DNA from: an uncultured Pelagibacteraceae bacterium
GTDB lineage: Bacteria; Pseudomonadota; Alphaproteobacteria; Pelagibacterales; Pelagibacteraceae
Length of the DNA stretch: 64,000 nt
Assembly (NCBI GenBank): GCA_902526595.1
Contig: CABZLO010000004.1
Span: 1-64,000 of the forward strand
Direction of reading: 5' to 3'
A program made the translations under genes and the position numbers. The notes under the pieces are model-generated. The model was not told the DNA's origin, made no database searches, and was given only the letters and a program-made list of their open reading frames with translations. This document shows, piece after piece, positions 16,601 to 24,886 of the stretch. Position 1 is the stretch's first letter. Each line of letters starts with the position of its first letter.

Positions 16601-18091
16601 ATGAAGTTATTTTTTATACTTGGTAATCAATTATTTCCAACAAAATACATCGACCGCTTCAAAAAAGACCATACGTTCTTTATGGCAGAAGATAAAGGTT
16701 TATGCACTTATGAAAAGCATCATAAGCAAAAAATTTTATTGTTCCTATCTTCTATGCGGTCCTATGCTGATAGTCTTAAGAAAAATAAATTTAAATTAGA
16801 ATATTCAAAAATCGAAGATAAAGAATTTAGTGAAGATTATTTAAAAAAATTAAAAAAAATTATTACCCAAAAAAAAATCAAAGAAATTTCTAGCTTTGAG
16901 ATAGAAGACAAGCCTTTTGAACAAAAGATTTCCATGTTTTTTAAAAAAGAAAAGATTGATTGGAATATCTTACAAACACCAATGTTTTTAAATTCTCGTG
17001 AAGAATTTAAAAAATATTTAGGAAATTCAAAAAAACCATTTATGGCAACTTTCTACAAAGAGGTTAGAAAAAAATCTGGAATATTAATGGGTTCTGACGG
17101 CAATCCTATTGGTGGTAAGTGGAGTTTTGACGAAGACAATAGAAATAAATTACCCAAAGATATTTCAATACCTAAATTTCCTAAAATTAAAGAAACAAAT
17201 CATACAAAAAAATTAAAACCTATTATTGAAAAATTATTCAAAGATCATCCAGGTAGTACAAATAATTTTTGGTTTGCAACAGAATATGATGATGTTGTGA
17301 AACTTTTGAATTTTTTTATAAAAGAAAAATCAAATTTATTTGGTGACTACGAAGATGCCGTAGATCAAAAAGATAATATTCTTTTTCACAGTGCTCTAAG
17401 TCCCTATATTAATCTTGGCTTAATAACGCCAGAATTTATAATTCAAAAAGTTCTAGATTTTCATAAAAAAAATAAAATTAGAATGAATTCTATTGAAGGA
17501 TATATTCGTCAAGTGATTGGTTGGAGAGAATTTATGCGAGGAATTTACCAAGGTTATTCAAAAGAAATGGAAAATGGAAATTTTTTTAAACAAAATAGAA
17601 AAATGAAAAATTCTTGGTACGAGGGAAATACAGGTCTTCCCCCATTAGATTATGCGATTAAAAATGCTGTTAATCACGGATGGTCACATCATATCGAGAG
17701 ATTAATGATTTTATCAAATATTATGAACTTGTGCGAGATCAAACCTATGATCGTTTACAAATGGTTTATGGAAATGTTTGTAGACTCTTCCGACTGGGTG
17801 ATGGTTCCAAATGTATATGGTATGGGGCTATTTAGTGATGGAGGAATTTTTGCAACCAAACCTTATATATGCGGATCGGCATATTTTATGAAAATGATGG
17901 ATTTTAAAAAAGGTGAGTGGTGTAATACTATGGATGGTCTTTATTGGAGATTTATAGATAGAAATAGAAAATTCTTTTTAAAAAACCCTCGTTTATCTAT
18001 GATGGTTAGGATATTTGATAAAATGAAAGCAGACAGAAAAAAATTAATTTTATCTGAAGCAGAAAAATTTATCAAACAAAATACTGCATAG
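16601..18091 (+). CDS. Cryptochrome/photolyase of the FeS-BCP (PhrB/CryB) type, missing two cluster cysteines
   Basis: A 496-aa flavoprotein of the bacterial (6-4)-photolyase/CryB group. It opens with 'FFILGNQLFP' and 'VFMAED'-like 'TFFMAEDKGL'. The antenna-like domain covers about 1-130 and the FAD domain contains 'YIRQVIGWREFMRGIY' (301-316), 'HGWSHHIERLMILSN' and 'DWVMVPNVYGMGLFSDGG'. Members normally hold a [4Fe-4S] cluster on four Cys (C350, C438, C441 and C454 in Agrobacterium PhrB). Here C378 and C441 sit at the first and last positions, but the middle CxxC is absent and the segment between 'AYFMKM' and 'LYWRF' is about 10 residues shorter. C424 is a possible substitute ligand. The stop codon overlaps the GTG of the DUF2256 gene. 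Confidence 0.92.
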   Translation: MKLFFILGNQLFPTKYIDRFKKDHTFFMAEDKGLCTYEKHHKQKILLFLSSMRSYADSLKKNKFKLEYSKIEDKEFSEDYLKKLKKIITQKKIKEISSFEIEDKPFEQKISMFFKKEKIDWNILQTPMFLNSREEFKKYLGNSKKPFMATFYKEVRKKSGILMGSDGNPIGGKWSFDEDNRNKLPKDISIPKFPKIKETNHTKKLKPIIEKLFKDHPGSTNNFWFATEYDDVVKLLNFFIKEKSNLFGDYEDAVDQKDNILFHSALSPYINLGLITPEFIIQKVLDFHKKNKIRMNSIEGYIRQVIGWREFMRGIYQGYSKEMENGNFFKQNRKMKNSWYEGNTGLPPLDYAIKNAVNHGWSHHIERLMILSNIMNLCEIKPMIVYKWFMEMFVDSSDWVMVPNVYGMGLFSDGGIFATKPYICGSAYFMKMMDFKKGEWCNTMDGLYWRFIDRNRKFFLKNPRLSMMVRIFDKMKADRKKLILSEAEKFIKQNTA

Positions 18092-18266: not shown

Positions 18267-19724
18267 ATGAACAAGATTGTTTGGTTTAGATATGATTTAA
18301 GACTAATTGATAATGATGCTTTTTTAAATGCAATTAAAAATGGCAATATTTTACCAATTTTTATATTTGATAAGGGTTATTTTAAATTAGAAGTCTCTAG
18401 TAGTTTTCATTTGAAGTTTATAATTGAGTCACTCAAAGAACTCGACAATATATTACAAAAAGAATTTGGTACTAACTTAAATATATATTATGGAGATACT
18501 CTAGAAATATTAAAAAAAATTATAGAAAATTTTAATATTAATGAGGTTTTCTCAAATAAAATATTCAAGAACAAATATTTAAATGATTTAGATTTAAATT
18601 TAAAAAATTTTTTTATTTCAAAAAATGTCAAATGGAATTTTTATAATCAATTTGGAATCCAATTAAATCACAGAGAACGATACAAATGGTCTGCTAATTG
18701 GAATAAATTCATAAATAGTAGACTAACTACTGGTAAATCAAATTGTAAATTTCTATTTGATCAAAAGTTAGATAATTTTGACATTATCGAAACAAATGAA
18801 ATTGATAGTAAATTTATACAAAAAGGTGGTAGAAAGCACGCATTAGACTTACTAGATAGTTTTCTAGATTCTAGATCAGAGAATTATCAACAAGAGATGT
18901 CTTCACCTTTAACTGGCGAAAAATCCTGTTCAAGATTAAGTCCTCATATTACATATGGAAATATTTCTCTTAAAGAAATATACAACAAAACAAAAAAAAA
19001 AATTAATACTATTGAGTCTTATTCAAATAAAAAATCATTATTAGCTTTTAAAAGTAGATTAGCTTGGCACTGCCATTTTATTCAAAAATTGTATGATGAA
19101 CCTGAAATTGAATTTACTAATTTAAATAAGGCTTATGATGGACTCAGAGAAAATGACTTTAATGAAGATTACTTTTTAGCTTGGAAGGAGGGCAAAACTG
19201 GATTTCCATTTGTTGATGCCTGTATCCGTTATTTAATTAAAACAGGTTGGATTAATTTTAGAATGAGAGCAATGCTTGTATCTTTTGCTTCATATCAGCT
19301 TTGGCTAGATTGGAAAAAAACTTCAAAACACATGGCTAAATTATTTACAGATTATGAGCCTGGTATCCATTACTCTCAATTTCAAATGCAATCAGGTACA
19401 ACTGGAATAAACTCTATTAGAATTTACAATCCAATTAAACAATCTTTTGATCAAGATGTTGATGGTAAATTCATACGTAAATGGGTGCCAGAATTAAGGA
19501 GTATTCCAGATAAATTAGTTCACGAACCATGGAAATTGACCTATCTGGATCAAAAAGGTTTGGGAATAGAGATTGGTACTGATTACCCTTCACCAATTGT
19601 TGATAATAAGATTTCTACTAAGTTAGCAAAAGATAAGATATGGAATGTTAAAAAATCTACAAAGTCAAAAATTATATCCAAAGATATTTTAAATAAACAT
19701 GCGAGCTTGTCGTTAAGAAGATAG
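18267..19724 (+). CDS. phrB: Deoxyribodipyrimidine photolyase / cryptochrome, class-I-like variant
   Basis: A 485-aa blue-light flavoprotein. The N-terminal antenna domain starts 'IVWFRYDLRLIDNDAF' and the FAD domain carries 'SRLSPHITYGNISLKEIY', 'FKSRLAWHCHFIQKLYDEP' and 'GFPFVDACIRYLIKTGWINFRMRAMLVSFA'. Where class I CPD photolyases have the cofactor-loop 'LIDGDLAANNGGWQW', this protein has 'LFTDYEPGIHYSQFQM', then 'GINSIRIYNP'. The Asn that contacts flavin N5 is therefore not at its usual place. I recall such 'YEPGIHYSQ' sequences as a distinct photolyase/cryptochrome subgroup. Activity is likely light-driven DNA repair, but signalling cannot be excluded. The gene is 44 nt after DUF2256 and 4 nt before the DUF4174-like gene. 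Confidence 0.93.
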   Translation: MNKIVWFRYDLRLIDNDAFLNAIKNGNILPIFIFDKGYFKLEVSSSFHLKFIIESLKELDNILQKEFGTNLNIYYGDTLEILKKIIENFNINEVFSNKIFKNKYLNDLDLNLKNFFISKNVKWNFYNQFGIQLNHRERYKWSANWNKFINSRLTTGKSNCKFLFDQKLDNFDIIETNEIDSKFIQKGGRKHALDLLDSFLDSRSENYQQEMSSPLTGEKSCSRLSPHITYGNISLKEIYNKTKKKINTIESYSNKKSLLAFKSRLAWHCHFIQKLYDEPEIEFTNLNKAYDGLRENDFNEDYFLAWKEGKTGFPFVDACIRYLIKTGWINFRMRAMLVSFASYQLWLDWKKTSKHMAKLFTDYEPGIHYSQFQMQSGTTGINSIRIYNPIKQSFDQDVDGKFIRKWVPELRSIPDKLVHEPWKLTYLDQKGLGIEIGTDYPSPIVDNKISTKLAKDKIWNVKKSTKSKIISKDILNKHASLSLRR

Positions 19725-19728
19725 AATT

Positions 19729-20253
19729 ATGAATTTAGAAAAATATAAATGGAAAAGTAGAATTTTATTAGTAAATACACCAAATTTTAAACACAAATCA
19801 TATCAAAGAGCAAAAAAAATATATCAAAGCAAGATTAAGGAATTCCATAAAAGATATGTAAAATTAATTTGTAAATCAAATAAAAACAAAACTTTTTCAA
19901 TAAATCTTATTGGTTTCGATGGAAAATCAAAAAAAATTATGAATGATTTAAAACCCAAGCTAGTTTTCCAAATAATTGACAAGATGCCATTAGGTAAAAA
20001 AATTAGACCAATTAACCTATCTTTATATTCTGATTATAATCCTAAAACCACAACACATGGATTAGGATTTAAAAATAAAGAAAAAGCTTTATTTACAATT
20101 AATAAAATTAAAAATAGATCTACAAAGTATCAAGTAAATGTAGTTTCGACCATGCTTGGTAGAGCCAAAAATCATCCAAACAAAACTAAAGACATGGGTG
20201 GAGCTATAAAAGTATTTGAAGATTGGTTGAAACGATATAAGAGAAAAAAATGA
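19729..20253 (+). CDS. Basic protein, possible DUF4174-like N-terminus with unknown C-terminal domain
   Basis: A 174-aa, strongly basic protein without membrane segments. The N-terminal half ('LEKYKWKSRILLVNTPN' and a later 'QIIDKMPLGKK') recalls DUF4174, a thioredoxin-like-fold family that begins with 'L..YRWKNRLLLVF'. The C-terminal half, 'HGLGFKNKEKALFTINKIKN' followed by 'STMLGRAKNHPNKTKDM' and 'AIKVFEDWLKRYKRKK', does not fit DUF4174 and looks like a separate conserved helical module. It lies 4 nt after the photolyase gene and overlaps the next gene by 4 nt, so it belongs to the photolyase transcript. The function is unknown; high charge and context hint at nucleic-acid contact. Confidence 0.72.
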   Translation: MNLEKYKWKSRILLVNTPNFKHKSYQRAKKIYQSKIKEFHKRYVKLICKSNKNKTFSINLIGFDGKSKKIMNDLKPKLVFQIIDKMPLGKKIRPINLSLYSDYNPKTTTHGLGFKNKEKALFTINKIKNRSTKYQVNVVSTMLGRAKNHPNKTKDMGGAIKVFEDWLKRYKRKK

Positions 20254-21692
20254 AAAGTAAGACGTCTAATTTTTTAAATAAAATAATAATTTTAACAATT
20301 TTAATAATACCCAACATTGTTAATGCTGATTTTTTTGAGGATATAACTAATAAAATTGTAGATAATCCAAAAAGACTTAGTTATGGCATTTCTGTTGCCG
20401 ATATAAATCAAAATGGAAAATATGAATTTATAGTTACAGGATTTGGTTATCCTAATTTAGCTTTATCATATAACAATGGAACATTAATTAATATTGCTAA
20501 TCAAAATGTATTTTCAGATGAATCTAGAAAAACTATTGGTGTTGCAGCCTGTGATGTTGATAGAGATGGTTATGAAGAAATATATTTTCTTAACACAGAT
20601 ACATATAGTGGAACAAAAAAATATTCGGACAGACTTATAGATTTAGAGGAAAATAAGTTTTTAGACATGTTCGAAATTGAAAAAAATAAAGAGGATTTAA
20701 ATTTAACAGCAGGTAGATCCGTCGCTTGTGTGGATAGAAGAGGTAATGGTGAATATGGTCTCTATGTATCAAATTACGGAGGACCAACAAGGTTTTATGA
20801 GATTGAAAATAAAAAGATTAGGGATAAATCAGTTAGTTTAAATTTAGATAAGGTTACAGGTGGAAGGGCAGTTGTTTCAGGGCATATTTTAACAGATAGA
20901 TCTGATATTTTCGCAGCAAATGAAAGAGGCCCAAATTTTCTTTTGAAAAATAATAATGGGGTTTTTGAAGATGTTGCATTTGATTATCGAGTAGATGATG
21001 TGATCCAGAACGGCAGAGGAACTGCACTATCAGACATACTTTATCGAGGAAGATTAGATATTATAAGTGGAAACTGGCAGGGTTATCACAGAGCTTACGC
21101 TTTAAGAGATAATCAATTTAAAGATATAGGCAACAGTAAATTTGATAAACCTTCAAGAATTCGAACAATTATATCTGCTGATTTTGATAACGACGGTTAT
21201 GATGAAGTCTTCATGAACAACATCGCTGAGCCTAATAAGTTATTTAGGATAATAGAGAATGGAGCTTTTGAGGAAATAATACTGGAAACAGGCCTTGAAC
21301 CAGATGGGTTTGGCACGGGAGCTGCAGTTGCTGACATTGATGATGATGGCATTTTAGAATTATTAGTTTCTCGTGGTGAAAGCAAAGAACAGCCATTAAC
21401 TCTGTATAAAGCAACAGTTGATAAACAAAGCAAATATTTGAGAATTAAACCTATTAATAAATTTGGGGCACCAGCAAGAGGTGCAACAGTTACATTACTT
21501 ACAAATCAAAGAAAACATTCAAAAACTATTGATGCTGGATCTGGTTATTTGTGTCAAATGGAGCCTGTGGCACATTATGGAATTAGAAAAAACGAAATAA
21601 ATTTTAAGGTAGAAGTTAAATGGACTGATGGTACTAAAAATTTAATCAAAATAACTTCGTTAAATCAAACAGTTACTATAAAACAAAAATGA
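20250..21692 (+). CDS. Secreted FG-GAP/VCBS repeat protein with ASPIC/UnbV domain (CRTAC1-like)
   Basis: A 480-aa exported protein with signal peptide 'FLNKIIILTILIIPNIVNA'. Several integrin-like FG-GAP repeats carry calcium-loop motifs: 'DINQNGKYEF' (about residue 48), 'DVDRDGYEEI' (105), 'DFDNDGYDEV' (310) and 'DIDDDGILEL' (365). The last 80 residues match the ASPIC/UnbV domain: 'KFGAPARGATVTLL', 'GSGYLCQMEPVAHYGI' and a closing 'VKWTDGTKN'. Such proteins are beta-propellers at the cell surface or in the periplasm, with unknown ligands. The gene overlaps both neighbours by 4 nt (ATGA-type), tying it to the photolyase operon despite its different location in the cell. Confidence 0.9.
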   Translation: MKSKTSNFLNKIIILTILIIPNIVNADFFEDITNKIVDNPKRLSYGISVADINQNGKYEFIVTGFGYPNLALSYNNGTLINIANQNVFSDESRKTIGVAACDVDRDGYEEIYFLNTDTYSGTKKYSDRLIDLEENKFLDMFEIEKNKEDLNLTAGRSVACVDRRGNGEYGLYVSNYGGPTRFYEIENKKIRDKSVSLNLDKVTGGRAVVSGHILTDRSDIFAANERGPNFLLKNNNGVFEDVAFDYRVDDVIQNGRGTALSDILYRGRLDIISGNWQGYHRAYALRDNQFKDIGNSKFDKPSRIRTIISADFDNDGYDEVFMNNIAEPNKLFRIIENGAFEEIILETGLEPDGFGTGAAVADIDDDGILELLVSRGESKEQPLTLYKATVDKQSKYLRIKPINKFGAPARGATVTLLTNQRKHSKTIDAGSGYLCQMEPVAHYGIRKNEINFKVEVKWTDGTKNLIKITSLNQTVTIKQK

Positions 21693-22378
21693 AAAAAATC
21701 TTATCTAAATTCATTTTAATTTTCTTTGTATTTTTTCAATTTGAGTCATTCGCAGAAGAAAAAAATTATCATAAAGAATTAATTACTGATTGGTCTAGAA
21801 TATTTCCAGATCAAAATAGAAATGCAGCTGGACCAAAGTTTTTTAAGTATATTATAGATAAAGAAATTACTTATAAAGATTTTAAAGAATTTAATAAATT
21901 ATACTGTGCAGTTTCTGGATCATTAATTGACCCAAATAGCGAACCAGATTTTTTATACGCTAAAGAGACCAAAAGTGGGGAAAAGATTTGTGGTGATTAC
22001 TATAAGTGCTGTATTCCTTGCTCGTGCGATATTATGAAATATTCTGAAGTTGAAAAGATGACTCATAAATTTTTGGATGGTTTAAAAGATTTTTATGTAT
22101 TTACCATCAGAAATCCTTGCAAGAAGAAAGATTTTCCTGACCGAGTAAATAAAGATTACTTTTGTGATGGAGAAAAAATCAACAATAATCAAGTCTATAA
22201 TCTTAATGATCGAGTAGTAATAGGCTTATTACATGAAGGAAGAAGCTGTAAAAAAGAAGAGATAGATTTTGTAAAAAGTCACCAAGTAACCGGAAGGTTT
22301 TGTGAATTACGAAATAATACTCCTTTAGAAAATTTGAAAACTGGAATGGGCGATATATTTATTAAGCTTGCCAGATAA
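21689..22378 (+). CDS. Secreted cysteine-rich protein of unknown function
   Basis: A 229-aa protein with a clear signal peptide ('ILSKFILIFFVFFQFESFA') and ten cysteines in the mature part, including a dense 'CGDYYKCCIPCSC' cluster near residues 99-112 and later single Cys in 'RNPCKKK', 'YFCDG', 'RSCKKE' and 'RFCELR'. The even number suits periplasmic disulfides; the CC-x2-C-x-C group could also bind a metal. I do not recognise a family. It overlaps the FG-GAP gene by 4 nt, so the two are co-translated and may act together at the cell envelope. Confidence 0.75.
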   Translation: MKKILSKFILIFFVFFQFESFAEEKNYHKELITDWSRIFPDQNRNAAGPKFFKYIIDKEITYKDFKEFNKLYCAVSGSLIDPNSEPDFLYAKETKSGEKICGDYYKCCIPCSCDIMKYSEVEKMTHKFLDGLKDFYVFTIRNPCKKKDFPDRVNKDYFCDGEKINNNQVYNLNDRVVIGLLHEGRSCKKEEIDFVKSHQVTGRFCELRNNTPLENLKTGMGDIFIKLAR

Positions 22379-23144: not shown

Positions 23145-23362
23145 ACAATAAAATATTTGAATGGGCTGGAGTTATAACTGCAATATTATATTCTTTGTTT
23201 GTAGCTTTGAATATAGGAATTGAATTTTTCGGTTTTTGTTTATTACTTTTATCGGCAATTTTAATCGGAATTTGGGCCTATAGGGGTGGTCATAAAGGAA
23301 TTTTATTTCTACAATTTTTTTATGCAACAGCTGGTATTATTGGGATGGTACGTTGGTTTTAA
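23141..23362 (+). CDS. Small three-helix membrane protein
   Basis: A 73-aa product, almost entirely three hydrophobic helices (about residues 5-25, 29-47 and 53-70) with the short loop 'YRGGHKG'. It resembles small bacterial membrane proteins with a 'W.G...ailys..vaLNIG.e..GF' pattern, and its layout resembles half-size PnuC/SWEET-like proteins, but I cannot assign a family. It is translationally coupled to the amidotransferase (4-nt overlap) and shares a TTAA stop with the convergent photolyase-like gene. Confidence 0.7.
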   Translation: MNNKIFEWAGVITAILYSLFVALNIGIEFFGFCLLLLSAILIGIWAYRGGHKGILFLQFFYATAGIIGMVRWF

Positions 23363-24498
23363 TCAAAACTTGATATTATTTTTGGAATATAATTTTTAAA
23401 ATTAAAAAAACCTTTGTTGCAATATTGCCAGGAAAATCGATCAAGATCCCTGTATAAAAAGTCTAATTTAATATTATTTGAATTTAAATAACTTAAATTT
23501 TCACCTACAGTTGGGTATAGTCCGTAACAATTTTCAATATTTTTAATTTCATTAATATCAATAACCTCACATTCGATAGAATTATCTTTCAATCTTTGTT
23601 GTTGGTCATCAATTAAAAGAGACTTAAATTTCACTGACTTCTCACTGAGCTTGATAGATCTACTTTCATTTTTAATAGAAACTATGTAAATTTTTTGAAA
23701 GTTATTTTTTTTAAAGTCAGAGATTTCAAATGAGAGATTATTTTCAAAAGCTAAAAGATTTTTCCCTTCCAAATCCTGTGGGTTACTGAAATCTTGTTTA
23801 ATTGTAGAGTAAGTTTTTTCTGAGATTTTTGGAGGTGCGTTTTCATTCAATTTGATGTTTTGAAACCTGTTATTAGTAAATTTTTTTATGTTCCACTCGC
23901 TTGCTAGGTAATGTTTACCTTGTGTTTGAATTCCAGCTACCCATCTCCAACCAAGGGTGTTAGATGCAGCGTCTCCATCATAAAGATGTTGCATAAAAAA
24001 CTCAGCACCAAGTTGCCATGGTAATTCTAAAGTGAAAATCCAAATACTTGCAAACCACATTCTAGTATGGTTGTGAAGATAGTTATTTTCTTTGAGTTCA
24101 TTTACCCAGTAATTAAAGCATTCAATATTTGTTTTCCCTTCGATTGCTCTCAAATATTCTTTGTTATCTTTTAAATCTTCTCTTGTTTTTTTTAGATCTA
24201 TTAAATAATCATTCCATACATTTGGTCTTAGTTCTAACCAGCCTTTCCAATAAGTACGCCAAAGAACTTCTTGAATAAATTTTTCGTTTTTAGCGAAAGA
24301 AAATTTATTAAGAGACTTTTTTATTATTTCTTTTTCGCTTATTATTCCGTGTGTAATGTAAGGTGATAAGCACGAGACATTAGATCTACTCTCTGGACCA
24401 AGATCAAAATTTCTTAATTTAGAGTAATCTGTTAAATTATTTTCGATAAAATGATTTAGTTTTTCAATGGCTTTCGCCCTCGAAGCCTCAAACGACAT
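23359..24498 (-). CDS. Short photolyase-like FAD-domain protein with extra C-terminal domain
   Basis: A 379-aa member of the photolyase/cryptochrome superfamily that begins directly with the FAD-binding domain. Seen are 'SRSNVSCLSPYITHGIISEKEI' (37-58), 'FIQEVLWRTYWKGWLELRP' (74-92), 'NHTRMWFASIWIFTLELPWQLGAEFFMQHLYDGDAASNTLGWRWVAG' (143-189) and 'LASEWNIKKFTNNRF'. The canonical Asn of the flavin pocket ('ASNTLGW') is kept. The usual N-terminal antenna domain is missing. Instead about 130 residues follow (about 250-379) with alternating strands and helices ('KIYIVSIKN', 'FKSLLIDDQQQRL', 'ECEVIDINEI', 'NIKLDFLYRDLDRFSW') that look Rossmann-like, as if the domain order were swapped. Enzyme activity is unknown. 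Confidence 0.85.
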   Translation of the reverse strand: MSFEASRAKAIEKLNHFIENNLTDYSKLRNFDLGPESRSNVSCLSPYITHGIISEKEIIKKSLNKFSFAKNEKFIQEVLWRTYWKGWLELRPNVWNDYLIDLKKTREDLKDNKEYLRAIEGKTNIECFNYWVNELKENNYLHNHTRMWFASIWIFTLELPWQLGAEFFMQHLYDGDAASNTLGWRWVAGIQTQGKHYLASEWNIKKFTNNRFQNIKLNENAPPKISEKTYSTIKQDFSNPQDLEGKNLLAFENNLSFEISDFKKNNFQKIYIVSIKNESRSIKLSEKSVKFKSLLIDDQQQRLKDNSIECEVIDINEIKNIENCYGLYPTVGENLSYLNSNNIKLDFLYRDLDRFSWQYCNKGFFNFKNYIPKIISSFD

Positions 24499-24505
24499 AT
24501 TTAAA

Positions 24506-24886
24506 TTACCTAGATTTTTTTTTCTTAAGACCTAGTTTGTCACTATGTCTTAATCTTAGAACAACGATTGCTCCAGCGATTAACAGTATAGCAACTGCCT
24601 CATAAACAAGAGCTGTAGGATCCATTTCTTTTCCTTGAAGTATAATAAATCGAGCAAGAGCTGTTATTGCAATAAGAAGTGGTAAGGTAATACTTATAGA
24701 TTGCTGATTCCAAAAAACTCTTACCATTGCAAGAACTTCTAAATATAGAAACATTAAAAGTAAATCAGCTAGGGTCACTAATTGATTTGTAAACATATTT
24801 AATATTTCAATACCAACAGCAATAACAGTGCTGATTAAAATAATACACATCAAACCTAATTGTAAGTTTTTTGCTATCTTATCCAT
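24506..24886 (-). CDS. PsiE family membrane protein
   Basis: A 126-aa protein with four hydrophobic helices that fits the phosphate-starvation-inducible PsiE family: 'LADLLLMFLYLEVLAMVRVFW', 'ITALARFIILQGKEMDP' and a basic tail 'LRHSDKLGLKKKKSR'. PsiE's function is not known; in enterobacteria it responds to phosphate limitation and cAMP-CRP. The start ATG overlaps the end of the upstream membrane gene by 1 nt, and the photolyase-like gene begins 7 nt downstream. The three minus-strand genes therefore probably form an operon. Confidence 0.88.
   Translation of the reverse strand: MDKIAKNLQLGLMCIILISTVIAVGIEILNMFTNQLVTLADLLLMFLYLEVLAMVRVFWNQQSISITLPLLIAITALARFIILQGKEMDPTALVYEAVAILLIAGAIVVLRLRHSDKLGLKKKKSR

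Follow-up and report, generated by a model that had tools for sequence, protein, structure and literature searches.

The locus and its photolyase genes

The window, that is, the whole stretch of 64,000 nucleotides analysed here, comes from a SAR11 (Pelagibacteraceae) genome and carries on its minus strand an open reading frame, running from 24498 down to 23362 with its stop codon at 23359-23361, that encodes a photolyase-like protein of 379 residues. The photolyase genes of the window considered here, and the parts of this protein, are as follows.

16601-18091, plus strand: FeS-BCP/DPRP-type photolyase gene, a conserved neighbour (Pfam DPRP, E 4.5e-66)
18267-19724, plus strand: further photolyase-like gene, 485 amino acids (PF00875 and FAD_binding_7; best PDB match 4u63, class III)
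23359-24498, minus strand: NewPHL-type photolyase gene, 379 amino acids plus stop
23863-24498, minus strand: shortened FAD-binding photolyase domain, N-terminal, residues 1-212 (Pfam and alignment to E. coli PhrB 202-395)
23959-23961, minus strand: codon of Asn180, equivalent to E. coli N378 near the flavin (PhrB alignment; invariant in 17 family members)
23764-23862, minus strand: linker, residues 213-245 (low-confidence coil in the AF2 model)
23362-23763, minus strand: C-terminal alpha/beta 'Z-domain', a putative relocated antenna-type domain, residues 246-379 (profile comparisons; AF2-predicted strand/helix order)

The FeS-BCP/DPRP-type gene lies downstream of the NewPHL-type gene in all 56 of the SAR11 loci with full flanks, giving a two-photolyase neighbourhood. 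In none of these 56 syntenic loci did we find the photolyase gene at 18267-19724, a lineage-specific insertion whose protein has a very long branch in the FAD-domain tree; the length of that branch may be exaggerated, the FAD segment having been cut at a default position. The genes between the photolyase genes (19729-22378, plus strand: DUF4174, FG-GAP/UnbV_ASPIC and a gene of 229 amino acids) occur in only 7-9 of the 56 loci, and we therefore regard them as a variable insert. Directly upstream of the NewPHL-type gene and on the same strand, a PsiE-family gene (24506-24886, minus strand) is kept in 55 of the 56.

The FAD-binding domain

The Pfam family FAD_binding_7 matched residues 74-198 (E 6e-16), the match covering only positions 1-127 of the 203 in the profile, and the domain of the window protein lacks the final ~75 positions of the family. 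No DNA_photolyase (antenna) domain was found at either end of the 379-residue protein by single-sequence Pfam search, and the original prediction, that the FAD domain comes first with no antenna N-terminal to it, is borne out.

Residue equivalences were taken from a phmmer alignment to E. coli PhrB. The residues kept are E77 (E274 in E. coli), W80 (W277), R81 (R278), N143 (N341), M147 (M345), D174 and D176 (D372 and D374), N180 (N378) and W186 (W384); the flavin-pocket asparagine, picked out beforehand as intact within the motif ASNTLGW, is thus the equivalent of the E. coli one. In the electron-transfer chain W184 (W382) and W161 (W359) are kept, and the position of W306, the outer tryptophan, is occupied by Leu109. 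Across a 17-member family alignment the FAD- and CPD-contact residues and the tryptophans are invariant or nearly so, the exception being Leu109. Because the residues that bind FAD and the CPD are retained together with W184 and W161, the protein is predicted to be a functional CPD photolyase that uses a Trp dyad.

Membership of the NewPHL class

The SAR11 protein belongs to the known NewPHL class, the architecture of which has already been published and is not new. This assignment was made through the described traits of the class and through alphaproteobacterial homologues, including that of Ruegeria TM1040. The characterised NewPHLs are the proteins of Dinoroseobacter shibae (A8LJA9) and Methylobacterium mesophilicum (M7YZC8) (Emmerich et al. 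2020, NAR 48:12845); the SAR11 protein is known here from its sequence.

According to PMC9426592, Prochlorococcus Phr7 has its FAD domain at the N-terminus and a Z-domain at the C-terminus and corresponds to the NewPHL class that Emmerich et al. described in 2020, the members of which are reported to repair CPDs in single-stranded DNA; Phr7 is also reported to lack Fe-S cluster cysteines (PMC9426592). NewPHLs have been termed inverted in topology (PMC13274461), a Trp dyad has been reported for the D. shibae protein (PMC8948257), and the flavin asparagine is among the conserved NewPHL residues (PMC12083526). All of the described sequence traits are present in the window protein, which is why we place it in the class: its FAD domain is N-terminal and its second domain C-terminal, N180, beside flavin N5, is invariant, the tryptophans form a dyad rather than a triad, and no Fe-S cysteine cluster was found after the FAD domain, the five cysteines of the protein being scattered. 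The swapped order suggested beforehand, FAD domain first and antenna-like domain last, consequently stands as a description, but not as a novelty, being the published inverted topology of NewPHL/Phr7 (PMC9426592, PMC13274461).

The FAD-domain tree, some rows of which carry long-branch warnings, puts the window protein within a group of alphaproteobacterial homologues that includes Ruegeria TM1040 WP_011536985 (support 97/99). Phr4/6-type proteins make up the group next to it (87/89), and the classical photolyases are set apart (100/100). With class I/III CPD photolyases (E. coli PhrB, 1dnp; Agrobacterium PhrA, 4u63) the window protein shares the FAD- and CPD-contact residues, but those enzymes have an N-terminal antenna, a complete FAD domain and a three-Trp chain. 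CPD repair in single-stranded DNA has been reported for DASH cryptochromes as well as for NewPHLs; the DASH proteins, however, have the normal domain order, and membership of that class was rejected on a TIGR02765 score of 64 bits against a cut-off of 317.

Origin of the C-terminal domain

No family in Pfam or in the further profile libraries searched covers residues 213-379, PF00875 matched none of 17 single Z sequences, and no solved structure matching the Z profile was found. We compared profiles with hhalign, using 29 sequences for the Z-domain and 18 for the antenna domain. The Z-domain matched the antenna with P 8.2e-5 over ~96 collinear columns, the register holding from the second strand onward, and the reverse comparison, with the antenna as query, was weaker (P 9.8e-4); we regard the statistic, which is one of sequence profiles, as moderate. 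Five further families served as controls, and for the Z-domain against Usp, ETF, CTP-transferase-like, response-regulator and SDR domains the P values lay between 0.015 and 0.6. In 20 resampled runs the antenna comparison fell below P 0.01 in 19 and below 0.001 in 12, as against two and none, respectively, for the best control family. With a plain HMM the Z part also fell in collinear order on residues 5-119 of one classical photolyase, though the score was only 2.7 bits.

Structure prediction was based on alignments of 78 and 73 close SAR11 relatives only, and gave AF2 models with a mean pLDDT of 58 for the full-length protein and 54 for the C-terminal part alone. The strand and helix order of the full-length model, poor as it is, is compatible with an antenna domain; a Foldseek search of the Z-domain model against the PDB returned no photolyase match, the models being poor (pLDDT 54-58).

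Relatives with the same reversed order offer a bridge. Phr4/Phr5 and Phr6 of marine Synechococcus and Cyanobium have been described as such (PMC9426592), and they share with the window protein an FAD domain followed by an antenna-type domain, the FAD domains being sister groups; Phr5 differs in often being a separate gene and in being more antenna-like than the Z-domain, and at least some of the FAD proteins have extra cysteines after the FAD domain, which the window protein does not. In the loci L105-L112 short FAD proteins of the sister group are followed by a separate Phr5-type gene of about 140-170 amino acids, and in Deinococcus sp. AJ005 the Phr5-type domain is fused to the FAD protein. 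The Phr5-type domains matched the antenna profile with P 2.3e-10, which improved to 5e-12 once two more members were included. Their match to the Z-domain, in the same register, had P 5.5e-5 to 4e-4 (1.5e-4, and 5.5e-5 with the enlarged set). Three of eight Phr5-type single sequences matched PF00875 (best E 0.013), and the Phr5-type HMM found the N-terminal antenna of the normal-order photolyase in the window (18267-18581, E 2e-7).

The loci L105-L112 represent split reversed photolyases in Alphaproteobacteria, a Phr4-type FAD gene and then a Phr5-type antenna-like gene (for example, 2105-2533 of L110, plus strand); in L111 the second domain is in a different frame. Fused reversed photolyases also occur beyond Cyanobacteria and Pseudomonadota, on plasmids of Deinococcus sp. 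AJ005 (L144, 2920-4290) and Persicobacter (L145, reading frame from about 2824), and the Deinococcus protein has a cysteine cluster after its FAD domain.

Taken as sequence profiles, these comparisons suggest that the Z-domain is an antenna-type domain moved to the C-terminus. It had been proposed that the region might be a relocated antenna through something like a circular permutation; the relocation is favoured by a profile match that exceeds those of five other alpha/beta families, both directly and through Phr5, but a permutation inside the domain is not, as the domain appears to have moved whole, keeping the order of its strands, so that the protein is permuted and the Z-domain itself is not. 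The other possibility raised at the outset, a new domain with another cofactor, was rejected for the Z region, there being nothing in its favour. The Usp family, too, gave matches to antennas (P 4e-6) and to Phr5 domains (P 5e-5), which is to be expected of members of one fold superfamily, and 'same superfamily' is therefore a safer statement than 'direct descendant'; the evidence speaks most strongly for a fold of the antenna type and somewhat less so for direct descent. With that reservation, we lean towards a history in which an ordinary antenna domain was moved whole to become the NewPHL Z-domain, with Phr4 plus Phr5 (split) and Phr6 (fused) as surviving relatives of the transition, and in which NewPHLs are rearranged photolyases rather than antenna-free ancestors.

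It is unlikely, in our judgement, that the protein is a NewPHL in which an alpha/beta domain of unrelated origin was recruited as the Z-domain to cover the FAD pocket, resembling the antenna only through general Rossmann-like similarity. The failure of single Z sequences to match Pfam and the negative fold search, made with poor models, would fit such a recruitment, as would the NewPHL FAD domain having no C-terminal helices of its own, a gap that a cap from outside would fill. The other alpha/beta families, however, scored far worse (P 0.015-0.6, against 8e-5 for the antenna and 4e-4 for Phr5), a difference stable under resampling, and recognisable antenna-type domains occupy the same position in the sister clade.

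Proposed function

We consider it quite likely, judging from the sequence comparisons, that the window protein is a NewPHL-type photolyase in which the FAD half repairs CPDs and an antenna-type alpha/beta domain, moved behind it, probably serves as a cap or in DNA docking. The N-terminal half would bind FAD, and under blue or near-UV light an electron would pass from reduced FAD to the cyclobutane pyrimidine dimer and split it; by analogy with the NewPHLs studied, single-stranded DNA would probably be the preferred substrate. Photoreduction of the FAD would run through the short chain of W184 and W161, Leu109 standing in place of the usual third tryptophan. At the position aligned with the antenna motif YE/DP the Z-domain reads YxPxGP; the acidic residue has been lost, which makes the usual antenna chromophores less likely, and the domain is most likely a structural cap or a DNA-docking part and not a light antenna. 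In published work on the class the second domain is reportedly described as sealing the FAD site.

Photolyase-like proteins have repeatedly turned into photoreceptors, and the three further photolyase relatives in this SAR11 genome could cover repair, so that a cryptochrome-like photoreceptor might be imagined in place of a repair enzyme; the retention of the CPD-contact residues E77, W80, N143, M147 and W186 speaks against it, and we hold this to be improbable.

Distribution and conservation

Close relatives of the protein are 79-93% identical to it, mostly across the full length. At E<=1e-60 the gene was detected in 135 of the 197 genomes of Pelagibacteraceae, in most cases at full length and uninterrupted by stops, and in 68 of the 77 high-quality ones, most of them again full length. 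The original prediction had named absence or lack of conservation of the C-terminal part in orthologues as evidence against it; when 77 orthologues from SAR11 were compared with the window protein, median identities were 83% in the FAD part, 76% in the linker and 77% in the C-terminal domain, which changes faster at the sequence level than the FAD part and yet is clearly kept in SAR11. The architecture, sought also in other genomes, recurs: of the 289 alphaproteobacterial genomes sampled, 21 contain the C-terminal domain (E<=2e-23), and when 299 Pseudomonadota genomes were sampled, full-length matches were confined to Alphaproteobacteria. No relatives were found in the viral contigs scanned with the family alignment. 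That the gene is a truncated or decaying photolyase with meaningless C-terminal residues, a reading to which an FAD domain shorter than those of classical photolyases might lend itself, is refuted by this conservation within the Pelagibacteraceae and across Alphaproteobacteria, and has next to no probability.

Implications

A NewPHL-type enzyme is a near-constant part of the SAR11 light-damage kit, beside the conserved FeS-type photolyase gene. What the present analysis may add to a known class is profile evidence for the Z-domain as a relocated antenna-type domain, and with it a plausible origin. It has been proposed that NewPHLs, together with short photolyases related to them, stand near the origin of the whole photolyase/cryptochrome family, because they seem to be antenna-free. 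Should the Z-domain prove to be a relocated antenna, that argument would weaken, and the class would be a natural case of whole-protein permutation.
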